From: a virus
Strand: one strand, 5' to 3'
Virus record (IMG/VR): IMGVR_UViG_3300020472_000153
Location: 1 to 25,317 of that record
DNA length: 25,317 nucleotides
In this document: piece by piece, positions 3,776-16,988 of the stretch
Layout: the number at the start of each line of letters is the position of its first letter
Numbering within the stretch: position 1 is the first letter of the stretch
The notes under the pieces: generated by a model
Databases searched by the model: none
What the model was told of the DNA's origin: nothing
What the model saw: the letters and a program-made list of their open reading frames with translations, nothing else
Program-made: the position numbers and the translations under genes

Positions 3776-3783
3776 TATTTATA
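3776..3783 (-). promoter_or_regulatory. T4-type late promoter (TATAAATA, exact consensus)
   Basis: The minus strand reads TATAAATA, the full T4 late consensus. It starts inside the last codons of the HNH gene, covers its stop codon, and lies 27-34 bases ahead of the GTG start of the 444-residue fibre-like gene. It is expected to be read by host RNA polymerase with gp55, gp33 and the gp45 clamp. Only gp33 of these is encoded in this window. Confidence 0.75.
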
Positions 3784-4321
3784 CACGACTTTTCTTAAGA
3801 TCGTTTGCTTTACGCATCCACTGATTAGTTGTGTAATCCTTCTCCGTAAGATTGTCTCCATAGTTGTTCAATTTGTTGTCATCTGCGTGATCAACTACAG
3901 GTGTCTCTGGCCAACGACCATTGTGTAGTGCAAATGCGACTGTATGGAATTGAATGTTACGCTGTACAATTTTACCCGAAAAAGTTTTTCCAGTTACCTG
4001 TACTGTACGATAGGTTTTCGCACCGTTCCAACCACCCTTAACTAGGTCACCATTCTTCTTGTAGATGTTACCACGACACTCAGCAGACTTACCCCACTTA
4101 GCAACGTATGAAGGTGGACCAATTTGCTCTACAGTTGCACGAAGGTCGTAGCGTTGTTGTAGATCTCTTACATCTAACTCTCTATACTTATTGATCTTCT
4201 TGAATACTCCTGCATCCTCAAGAAGTGCTCTGATGTCATAACCCGCTTCTTTTAGTTCTTTTGCGGATTCTACAAGAGTATTTACAGTTGGTGTCATGTC
4301 TTTAATTGATTTGATACTCAT
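3779..4321 (-). CDS. Free-standing HNH homing-type endonuclease, 180 aa
   Basis: The C-terminal half holds a clear HNH core: H126 in QFHTVAFALHNGRWP, then PVVDHADDNKLNN with D144 and H145, and N157 in DNLTEKD. This is the pattern of phage HNH nucleases of the HNH_3 type, which cut DNA using a beta-beta-alpha metal site. Residues 1-60 are helical and charged, and may help bind DNA. No AP2 or NUMOD domain follows; the protein ends shortly after the HNH. It stands alone between tiny unknown genes and the fibre genes, with no sign that it interrupts a gene, so it is probably a mobile free-standing homing nuclease. The ATG at 4321 has no clear Shine-Dalgarno. Confidence 0.85.
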   Translation of the reverse strand: MSIKSIKDMTPTVNTLVESAKELKEAGYDIRALLEDAGVFKKINKYRELDVRDLQQRYDLRATVEQIGPPSYVAKWGKSAECRGNIYKKNGDLVKGGWNGAKTYRTVQVTGKTFSGKIVQRNIQFHTVAFALHNGRWPETPVVDHADDNKLNNYGDNLTEKDYTTNQWMRKANDLKKSRV

Positions 4322-7915: not shown

Positions 7916-8389
7916 TCATTTATTTATTCGAGTAAACATGAACTCACCTTCTTCTTCAGATTTACCCCATTTAAATTCTTTAGTAACAAGATCAAGTCCA
8001 GTATCCCTAGATCTATACTCATCACCATTAAAACGAACGTGAGATTTAACCAGTGAATTATTTAGAATACAATCACGACTGGGTTCACCCCACCACCATC
8101 CATTATAGAATCCCCAATGCCAATCACATGCATGTTCGCCTGTTAATGTATTGAGTGAAGTAGTGTGACAGTTACCCTCCTCATCATATCTATACGACAA
8201 ATGAAAGACCCCATATGGATCCTCTTCTCCCTTATATTTGTACCATGATTTGAGTTCTACTATACCATCTTCAACTAAAGAATTTTTAATGATGATGTGT
8301 GGCCAAAGAGAAGGATTACTCTGTGCCTGTTTCTTGTTCTCGTAATTCCCCTGAATCATCAGGTGGAATTGGTCGCATTGTGTAGTCAT
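7916..8389 (-). CDS. cpeT: CpeT/CpcT-like phycobiliprotein bilin lyase, 157 aa
   Basis: The sequence follows the CpcT/CpeT lyase pattern: ENKKQAQSNPSLWPHI near residues 17-32, a central EDPYGVFHLSYR, the Cys/Trp segment HACDWHWGF, GEPSRDC near 101-107, then YRSRDTGLDLVTKEFKWG (125-142) and a C-terminal GEFMFTR. In hosts these proteins attach or handle bilins at phycobiliprotein cysteines; cyanophage homologues are known. At 157 residues it is shorter than host enzymes (about 180-200), as in other phage copies. ATG 8389 has AGG six to seven bases upstream, but overlaps the oxygenase gene by 74 bases; ATG 8359 is an alternative. It is co-oriented with tail genes, so late expression is likely. 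Confidence 0.75.
   Translation of the reverse strand: MTTQCDQFHLMIQGNYENKKQAQSNPSLWPHIIIKNSLVEDGIVELKSWYKYKGEEDPYGVFHLSYRYDEEGNCHTTSLNTLTGEHACDWHWGFYNGWWWGEPSRDCILNNSLVKSHVRFNGDEYRSRDTGLDLVTKEFKWGKSEEEGEFMFTRINK
7921..7928 (-). promoter_or_regulatory. T4-type late promoter (AATAAATA) for gp5
   Basis: The minus strand reads AATAAATA, overlapping the final codons of the cpeT-like gene and lying about 21 bases before the gp5 ATG at 7899. It matches the NATAAATA late motif. Its position over the 3' end of the upstream gene is the same as at the 444-residue fibre-like gene. Confidence 0.6.
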
Positions 8390-8954
8390 ACCAACCTGTT
8401 GCTATTATCTTAGTTTCATTAGGTGCAGGTATTCCCTGATGAAAGTGTGTCCAATCTGCTGGCCAAAGTATTGTTAAACCTTTAACTGGTTTTATCTTTG
8501 CTTCCTGTGTTGGAAAATATGTATATCCTCCTTCATCTACTGTATTTAAATAAGTCATCCATGCCATTACTCTTTGAGCAACCTCATATTGACTTGCCAT
8601 CTTTTCAGTATGCATCTGGAAGAAACCTCCACCAGGTTCATACTTCTGAACATTAAAAGGTGAGATAAGATCCCAAGAGATCTTACCAAAGAAAGGATAT
8701 CTATCAATATATTGTACCGTAACTTCGCCCAATTGGTCAAGATAGTCCTGTACTCTCTTATCCTTTAAGTGTACAGGAATAGTCATATCTGTGGAATCTT
8801 TTATCTTCTTATCAACTCCATGCCCACAGGATCCTGGTTCTCTCAGTAAATAATCACAGGTATCAAAAAAGTCCACGAGACCATCGCAGACTTCTTCAGG
8901 AATTTTAGCACCCGCAATAAAACTCTTGGGTGCATCTACTTCAATAAGATCCAT
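8316..8954 (-). CDS. 2OG-Fe(II) dioxygenase with H-x-E metal motif, 212 aa
   Basis: A cupin-type (prolyl-4-hydroxylase-like) oxygenase. The double-stranded beta-helix core is visible as FFQMHTEKMAS, MAWMTYLNTVDEGGYTYFP, VKGLTILWPADWTHFHQG and NETKIIATGWY. Numbering from ATG 8954, the metal ligands would be H115, E117 and the distal His in WTHFHQG, with a later Lys for 2-oxoglutarate. The first motif is H-x-E rather than the usual H-x-D. The start is ATG 8954; a TTG lies three codons upstream. There is no clear Shine-Dalgarno. Such oxygenases are common beside cyanophage tail genes; the substrate is unknown, with hydroxylation of a virion or host protein being one possibility. Confidence 0.85.
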   Translation of the reverse strand: MDLIEVDAPKSFIAGAKIPEEVCDGLVDFFDTCDYLLREPGSCGHGVDKKIKDSTDMTIPVHLKDKRVQDYLDQLGEVTVQYIDRYPFFGKISWDLISPFNVQKYEPGGGFFQMHTEKMASQYEVAQRVMAWMTYLNTVDEGGYTYFPTQEAKIKPVKGLTILWPADWTHFHQGIPAPNETKIIATGWYDYTMRPIPPDDSGELREQETGTE

Positions 8955-8968
8955 AATAAACAAATAAA

Positions 8969-9235
8969 CTAATCGTCGTAAACTCTACATTCCTCAGCAT
9001 CAGGATGATTATCACAATATATCTCTAGGTGTTGATCTTGATGTCTTGTGTGCCAATCATTAATAGCACCATCATTTCTATCAACTTCTTCACCCTTATG
9101 ATATTCCTCATAATAGGCATGTGATGATTCTAAATCTGCCTTAGTGTACTCCATCTTACCATGATTAATATGTTCCTTGCCATCTTTGGGATCAAGGTAG
9201 ACCTCATGGTCTAGATCGTGCTTAATATCTGACAT
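8969..9235 (-). CDS. CP12-like protein (C-terminal GAPDH-binding motif), 88 aa
   Basis: The last 19 residues, LEIYCDNHPDAEECRVYDD, closely match the C-terminus of the Calvin-cycle regulator CP12, including two cysteines (C74, C83) separated by eight residues and the terminal ECRVYDD. In CP12 this disulphide loop binds GAPDH and, with PRK, shuts down the Calvin cycle. The rest is unlike standard CP12: there is no N-terminal Cys pair and no clear AWD-VEE core, and the protein is very rich in His, Asp and Glu. Cyanophages are known to carry cp12, so the call is reasonable, but this is a divergent form. It lies between the gp27-like gene and the 2OG oxygenase. ATG 9235 lacks a clear ribosome site. 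Confidence 0.7.
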   Translation of the reverse strand: MSDIKHDLDHEVYLDPKDGKEHINHGKMEYTKADLESSHAYYEEYHKGEEVDRNDGAINDWHTRHQDQHLEIYCDNHPDAEECRVYDD

Positions 9236-9265
9236 AGAATTAATTAAGTGTAATGATATTTAGTA

Positions 9266-10663
9266 TTATACTCTAACACTATCCCTTGTGAGTTGCAATG
9301 TTGTGGATACACCATCTTTCTGCCAAACATGAGAGCAACCAGCAACCAAATACTTACCAGAGTATGTCTTATCTTCTTCAACTTTACCATTATCAGATCT
9401 ACCTAGAGGTATCGATACATCAATAACATCTCCTGCTGCAATACCAGTATTGCCTGGTACCTCAATCTGTAATGATATTGCTCTTATCATCTGATACCTT
9501 GCCATAGCATATGTACCAACCTCTAAAGTATCCATATCTGCTGTTCCTGCTCCAGCATTAGGATCACCAGCAGGTTTTCCTTTAACTTGTTTTTGATCCT
9601 TCAAACCTGGAAGTATCCTCATCTTATTACGAGTTGGGAAATACTCCTCATACTCCTGTAAATGTGGTAATGGATTTCCTTTTTCAAGAGTATCCATCTT
9701 TCTAAACTGTTGTGATAATTTTGATTCACGGGGTCCAGTTATTGTACCTCCTCCACCACCAGAGGTATCCATTGCAATTGCTGAACGTGTCATCGCTGGT
9801 AGCATAATGCCAGCAGTCACATTCTTAATAACACCTGTTCTCAACTTCTCTAGAATATTAGTACGATCAGGGAATGAAATATTGTTTATAAGATAATAAT
9901 TCCTTTCAGTAACACTCTGAGATACGTTCGATTGTTCAAATGTATATTGCCACCTTGCCGCTTGAGAACATAGTAAATCAATACTTCTAAAATTGAATCC
10001 ATACTTACTCTCATAGAATATAAATCCTGATTGCTTCTTCGAACCTTGACCAGAATTAGTCCTTGTTACCTTATCACAAACATAGTTAATAAAATCAACA
10101 GGTCTCCAATTAGGAGAAACGAAATTAATATTAGAACATGCTTCTAATGCCCCTGCGTGTTTGATTTTATTTTCTCCATGTAACTTATTTTTGATTGCCC
10201 ATTTAACTATACCATCCTTCTGTGCTTTACCATCGCCAGCAGGACCAAATGTGCCGAAAATTCTATTTACCTCATTGTTGAATGACTCTGTACTAACACA
10301 GTTCAACGTATAGGCACAAGTTCTTTCAGTCTTTACAACACTACTTATCTTAAATATCTGTCCTTCCCATTTGAGTTCTTGACCTTTCGCTGCATCTGTG
10401 AGGAGATTCAAATGAACAATCTCTCCACCACGTAACACATTAAGGAAGTCAACTGATTCAATAATTGATATATCCAATCTACAGAATGGTGCATCAATTG
10501 ACTCATACCATATAAATTCTGCTGCTACTTGTCGTAGATCAAAACTATTTTTAGAATCCTTCTTAAATCTTGCTGCTATGTCACCAGTAGCCTGACGGTT
10601 AGTACCACTAGGAATGGTAACCGTAAGATCTTTAAGTTCATAATCTCTTGCTTGCTGTGACAT
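9266..10663 (-). CDS. Baseplate hub protein, gp27-like, 465 aa
   Basis: This soluble protein of 465 residues has the features of a gp27/gpD-type hub. The N-terminal beta-rich region includes SFDLRQVAAEFIWYES and VVKTERTCAYTLNCVSTESF. A middle segment (NINFVSPNWRPVDFINYVCD, then GFIFYESKYGFNFRSIDLL) is typical of hub proteins that sit under the tail tube. A glycine-rich linker (TSGGGGGTITG) is near residue 300, and the C-terminal domain (GIAAGDVIDVSIPLGR ... GKYLVAGCSHVWQ) resembles a spike-interface beta domain. Its place between the tape-measure-like genes and gp5 fits the hub-then-spike order. Identification with T4 gp27 rests on pattern and order, not on strong sequence identity. Confidence 0.65.
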   Translation of the reverse strand: MSQQARDYELKDLTVTIPSGTNRQATGDIAARFKKDSKNSFDLRQVAAEFIWYESIDAPFCRLDISIIESVDFLNVLRGGEIVHLNLLTDAAKGQELKWEGQIFKISSVVKTERTCAYTLNCVSTESFNNEVNRIFGTFGPAGDGKAQKDGIVKWAIKNKLHGENKIKHAGALEACSNINFVSPNWRPVDFINYVCDKVTRTNSGQGSKKQSGFIFYESKYGFNFRSIDLLCSQAARWQYTFEQSNVSQSVTERNYYLINNISFPDRTNILEKLRTGVIKNVTAGIMLPAMTRSAIAMDTSGGGGGTITGPRESKLSQQFRKMDTLEKGNPLPHLQEYEEYFPTRNKMRILPGLKDQKQVKGKPAGDPNAGAGTADMDTLEVGTYAMARYQMIRAISLQIEVPGNTGIAAGDVIDVSIPLGRSDNGKVEEDKTYSGKYLVAGCSHVWQKDGVSTTLQLTRDSVRV

Positions 10664-16388: not shown

Positions 16389-16988
16389 TTATTTAGTAGG
16401 TTCAACCCAAGTGGTTATGATGTACTTATCTCCGTTCTTTGGTTGTATACCACGATGGATAAAATTCCATGTTGCAGGAACAAAAGTTAATCTACCACGT
16501 TTAGGTTTTATCTTGGTGCCATCTATTAATTCCGTCTCACCATCTTCAAAATTATCATTTAAATACCATATACAAAGTATTTGTCTATCACCTGCTGCAT
16601 CATGATGCCAATGATAATAATCATCATCAGATCTATACTTCTTTATATTAAATCCAGTATTATTCATACCATGTTGAAATAGTCCAGTAAAGTACTGTCT
16701 AATATGACTAAGATAGGATCCCAAATGGTTATCTAAAGAACCATATAAAACATCATCCTCATCTCGCCAGTCATCCTTATTGGTAACATAGAGTTCAGTA
16801 CACTTCTTTAATTCTGGGATAACTAGATCGTCTCCATTGACACGATACATACCCTGAGTTTGCCTTGTATCATACTCATACTTATCAATAACTTGCTTAC
16901 AAAATGATTCAGTAAGGACATTATCTATAGAATATACAAAATCAGAAAATTTCTCAATCTTCTTCACATTATCAAATTCCGTAATCAT
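16389..16988 (-). CDS. 2OG-Fe(II) dioxygenase, 199 aa
   Basis: A prolyl-4-hydroxylase-like oxygenase. The metal motif is H128-x-D130 in YYHWHHDAAGDRQ, followed by LCIWYLNDNFEDGETEL, a KPKRGRLTFVPATWNF segment, the distal H178 in FIHRG, and GDKYIITTWV, whose Lys may bind 2-oxoglutarate. All expected ligands are present, so it is likely active. The substrate is unknown. ATG 16988 overlaps the end of gp54 by 17 bases and has a strong GGAGGT just upstream. It sits between gp54 and gp26 in the late tail block. It is clearly different from the second oxygenase at 8316-8954. Confidence 0.87.
   Translation of the reverse strand: MITEFDNVKKIEKFSDFVYSIDNVLTESFCKQVIDKYEYDTRQTQGMYRVNGDDLVIPELKKCTELYVTNKDDWRDEDDVLYGSLDNHLGSYLSHIRQYFTGLFQHGMNNTGFNIKKYRSDDDYYHWHHDAAGDRQILCIWYLNDNFEDGETELIDGTKIKPKRGRLTFVPATWNFIHRGIQPKNGDKYIITTWVEPTK

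Follow-up and report, generated by a model that had tools for sequence, protein, structure and literature searches.

The window analysed here is a stretch of virus DNA of 25,317 nucleotides, positions 1 to 25,317 of IMG/VR record IMGVR_UViG_3300020472_000153. An 88-residue frame on its minus strand at 8969-9235 (from the ATG at 9235 to the end of the stop codon at 8969) is, by its profile and sequence matches, a cyanophage CP12 of the T4-GC 63 (P-SSM2) type, a further member of an already known kind. By analogy with other CP12s, its product is expected, with a probability of about 0.82, to be a GAPDH-binding, redox-responsive inhibitor of the Calvin cycle, an alternative form of phage cp12 in the usual slot of the baseplate block. 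This reading is supported by the family match, the invariant tail, the slot, the presence of one CP12-tail gene per record and purifying selection. Phage CP12 is believed to contribute to the shutdown of carbon fixation in the most abundant phototrophs of the ocean. The features are as follows.

9266-10663, minus strand: tail protein (phrog_350), upstream of the CP12 gene and defining its slot
9257-9263, minus strand: CTAAATA upstream of the start, late-promoter-like, of putative function; a TAAATA box is enriched before both CP12 types
8969-9235, minus strand: CP12-like gene of T4-GC 63 type (PHROG 2603), ortholog of P-SSM2 PSSM2_066 by profile and sequence matches
9029-9235, minus strand: front, residues 1-69, subfamily-specific, His/acid-rich and conserved (invariant His, purifying selection, similarity to the other type's front not significant)
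8972-9028, minus strand: predicted GAPDH-binding tail, residues 70-88, LEIYCDNHPDAEECRVYDD (PF02672 match, identity to the 3zdf tail, invariant Cys)
9014-9016, minus strand: Cys74, expected disulfide partner of Cys83
8987-8989, minus strand: Cys83, expected disulfide partner of Cys74
8316-8963, minus strand: 2OG-Fe(II) oxygenase (phrog_61), downstream, in the order seen in P-RSM6
7916-8389, minus strand: CpeT-like gene (phrog_488), a usual neighbour of phage cp12
5122-7899, minus strand: gp5-like baseplate hub and tail lysozyme (phrog_694), end of the slot

Conserved tail and distinct front

The sequence-only reading of this DNA had described a CP12-like C-terminus, which was confirmed by the Pfam search. 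Residues 63-87 align to positions 46-70 of PF02672 with 31.7 bits (E 2.7e-7; curated cut-off 22.7 bits), a match restricted to the 25 C-terminal positions of the profile and the only CP12 match in the whole 25 kb record. The PDB sequence matches are CP12 chains, the top one being a CP12 peptide (3zdf chain C) that is identical to the tail at 12 of 19 residues. Among phage families, PHROG 2603 matches the full length (residues 1-88, E 9e-24). The match to PHROG 627 (T4-GC 337 type) is confined to residues 33-88 (E 0.00046) and the front similarity is insignificant, so the protein does not belong to that family over its full length.

The last 19 residues (LEIYCDNHPDAEECRVYDD) hold a Cys pair spaced by eight residues and then a CP12-type ending, as had been described. 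In an IMG/VR scan, 212 stretches were found to encode a relative, of which 80 were retained, and conservation was read from an alignment of 63 relatives. All 63 match PF02672 and all 63 carry the CxxxPxxxxC pattern with C74, P78 and C83 invariant; E82, V85, Y86 and D87 are likewise invariant. The profile match and the conservation of the tail thus leave the sequence-only reading standing on both points at which it could have failed. A CxxxPxxxxC end is reported in review to interact with GAPDH in several different carrier proteins (PMC9406205), and the window protein very probably binds GAPDH through its C-terminus as well.

The earlier description of the first 69 residues was also correct. 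They contain nine His, 26% Asp plus Glu, no Cys and no AWD_VEE core, so that neither the N-terminal Cys pair nor the core of classical CP12 is present. Eight His (H6, H10, H22, H25, H39, H46, H62 and H65) are among the many front residues that are invariant in the 63 relatives. Outside the tail, similarity between the two phage CP12 types scored 12.8 against 7.4-16.0 for column-shuffled controls; this value is not significant, and common ancestry of the two types over their full length is therefore not supported. On this comparison the front is that of a different, well-conserved subfamily from ordinary phage CP12. AlphaFold returned no confident fold for the window protein (mean pLDDT 44). 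The protein is small and probably disordered for the most part.

Selection was estimated from rough pooled counts over related sequences. The aggregate dN/dS against the window is about 0.04, with synonymous sites near saturation, and on the same rough pooled counts of related sequences residues 1-60 give about 0.07. By these counts the window gene, front included, is under strong purifying selection. Such constraint, together with the many invariant His, exceeds the needs of a spacer, and the front has no detectable similarity to the other phage type. Both points favour a bifunctional protein, with a tail that binds GAPDH and a conserved front that engages something else, be it a metal ion, another enzyme or PRK contacted through a different surface. 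That proposal is possible but on the unlikely side, as other phage CP12s are equally rich in His and acidic residues, the shorter members from Syn1, ACG-2014f and S-B43 lack much of the front and still keep the tail, and no confident fold was predicted. Rather unlikely too is the suggestion that the T4-GC 63 front is a phage-made module, unrelated to the fronts of host and ordinary phage CP12s, that binds a metal or a second target of its own. If it were true, GAPDH would be held in a complex unlike that of any studied CP12.

Distribution and genomic slot

In whole-record searches of 21 named phage and three IMG/VR records, exactly one PF02672 match was found per record, of one type or the other. 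The ordinary type was present in eight named genomes (S-CREM1, WH25-B, P-RSM6, P-TIM40, S-WAM1, S-SM2, S-SRM01 and P-HM1) and the T4-GC 63 type in another eight (P-SSM2, RB11-B, ACG-2014f, Syn1, S-CAM1, Sf-CH11, S-B43 and Sf-FP1). The remaining eight records, of which five are virus contigs from single cells and three come from IMG/VR, are fragmentary and carry the T4-GC 63 type. The two types were not found together in any fetched locus. Most short T4-GC 63 members score 19-21 bits, under the Pfam cut-off.

No cyanobacterial genome in the genome scan had a relative of T4-GC 63 type. The only bacterial records that encode one were three contigs (L112, L113 and L114), filed as Gammaproteobacteria, Flavobacteriales and Actinomycetota MAGs. 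A phage-like tail protein lies upstream of the CP12 gene in L112 and L113, which are therefore probably misbinned phage contigs. A host origin of the gene was rejected on these grounds.

The position of the gene in the tail block had been regarded as odd, a view that did not survive comparison with other phages. P-RSM6 has the same gene order as the window (tail protein, CP12, 2OG oxygenase, CpeT, gp5) with an ordinary CP12 in place of the T4-GC 63 type. Ordinary cp12 occupies this slot also in S-SM2, WH25-B, S-CREM1, S-WAM1 and P-TIM40 and in most IMG/VR loci, and an earlier paper places cp12 near gp5 in some cases (PMC3037559). An unusual location was thus ruled out; the gene sits where cp12 is commonly found in the baseplate block.

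Because it is flanked by a tail protein gene and gp5, all three in one orientation, the gene might encode a component of the virion or baseplate. This is very improbable, given that relatives in P-SSM2, ACG-2014f, Syn1 and S-CAM1 lie outside the gp5 slot, that the slot also holds genes with metabolic annotations (2OG oxygenase and cpeT) and that the tail is a CP12 tail. It is also improbable, if less so, that a different phage protein gained a CP12 tail alone and uses it for another purpose, as a redox tether to GAPDH, much as ADK3 and GapB of algae and plants bear CP12-like tails. Homology is indeed significant solely when the tail is included, and such tails are found on different proteins (PMC9406205). 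However, the one-or-other distribution and the common slot indicate a gene that replaces ordinary cp12, the protein is CP12-like in size and composition, and no other Pfam family matched the window protein.

Among IMG/VR loci of the T4-GC 63 type, a recognisable tail protein adjoins the gene in 29 of the 69 with enough upstream DNA, and gp5 lies downstream in 46 of 62; the figures for ordinary cp12 loci are 60/76 and 39/46. The lower share of upstream tail proteins in T4-GC 63 loci may reflect partly distant tail proteins that were missed and partly genes located elsewhere. Tail proteins in these loci frequently share only 20-26% identity with that of the window, against 75-93% for the CP12s, which means either that the gene moved between phage lineages or that it is far more constrained than its neighbours. 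A recent swap between the CP12 types was rejected: in no pair of loci of different type are the flanks more than about 71% identical, and the best values between the window and loci of the other type are 49-58%.

Several other features of the region were observed. The window carries two 2OG-Fe(II) oxygenase genes (8316-8963 and 16389-16988) and, downstream of the gp5 block, an HNH endonuclease gene at 3779-4321. The oxygenase frame shares 74 bases (8316-8389) with the CpeT frame as listed, compared with an overlap of 11 bases in P-RSM6; an oxygenase extended at its C-terminus, or a CpeT that starts later, would explain the difference.

A TAAATA box is enriched at a fixed distance (about -25 to -34) before both CP12 types, in 29/70 and 47/60 distinct upstream stretches of the two types against a background of 3-4%. 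Late timing was not deduced from the CTAAATA of the window. The heptamer shows no excess over chance across the whole window, and the cp12 of P-HM1 is likewise preceded by a TAAATA box, while the cp12 of P-HM2, a relative of P-HM1, has been reported to belong to the middle cluster (PMC5082946).

Proposed function

In oxidised CP12 the C-terminal residues occupy the active site of GAPDH, and the cyanophage protein is held to bring the Calvin cycle to a stop (reviewed in PMC3906501, PMC4436894 and PMC9406205). The disulfide, GAPDH binding, inhibition and metabolic effect proposed for the window protein are carried over from these other CP12s. The two C-terminal Cys would form a disulfide, upon which the tail would fold and insert the acidic residues at its end into the active site of Gap2, the GAPDH of the host. 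With Gap2 inhibited, the Calvin cycle would run more slowly, and NADPH and carbon would be spared for the pentose phosphate pathway and the synthesis of phage nucleotides. In early studies the N-terminal Cys pair was deemed necessary for the ternary complex with PRK. Recruitment of PRK by the known AWD_VEE core is unlikely because this core is absent from the window protein, as from the other phage CP12s examined. The sequence-only reading therefore holds in part: the protein is CP12-like and likely to bind GAPDH by its C-terminus, but neither an altered inhibitor, as judged from the missing Cys pair and AWD_VEE, nor an odd position is supported. That two front modules go with the same tail, occupy a common slot and occur once per genome suggests that the GAPDH-binding tail is the selected function.

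Comparison with known CP12 proteins

The classical form of CP12 found in cyanobacteria and plants (PDB 6gve, 3b1j, 3qv1) shares the GAPDH-binding tail with the window protein but has an N-terminal Cys pair and an AWD_VEE core, both of which the window protein lacks. The marine cyanobacterial class CP12-C(M) is comparable through the literature, since the marine picoplanktonic group is reported in review to lack the classical form (PMC3906501).

Ordinary cyanophage CP12 (T4-GC 337, PHROG 627; P-RSM6, P-HM1, S-SM2) resembles the window protein in its C-terminal Cys pair and tail, in its richness in His and acidic residues, with a similar His content, and often in its slot by cpeT and gp5. It differs in its length of 70-75 residues and in a front without significant similarity. 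All eight ordinary cyanophage CP12s that were translated lack both the N-terminal Cys pair and AWD_VEE. These absences had been taken to mark an altered phage inhibitor. That interpretation was set aside, also in view of the marine picoplanktonic group (PMC3906501), and the missing Cys pair was rejected as a sign of alteration. A His/acid-rich front with neither element is normal for marine cyanophage CP12.

The closest named counterpart is P-SSM2 PSSM2_066 (T4-GC 63, PHROG 2603), with 72% identity across all 88 residues, although it sits among small hypothetical genes outside the tail-gp5 slot. Its GenBank product is 'hypothetical protein', and PHROGs v4 gives the function of both PHROG 627 and PHROG 2603 as unknown. 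Since this labelling covers the T4-GC 63 type, most of whose short members score below the cut-off, surveys based on annotation likely undercount phage cp12. In the CP12 entries of a 2010 paper, T4-GC 337 and T4-GC 63 are listed together as CP12 (PMC3037559). The lengths 267 and 231 in its CP12 row correspond to PSSM2_066 and Syn1_235, both T4-GC 63, an assignment made by length. Going by those entries, the kind was already known, and the window gene is another member of it.
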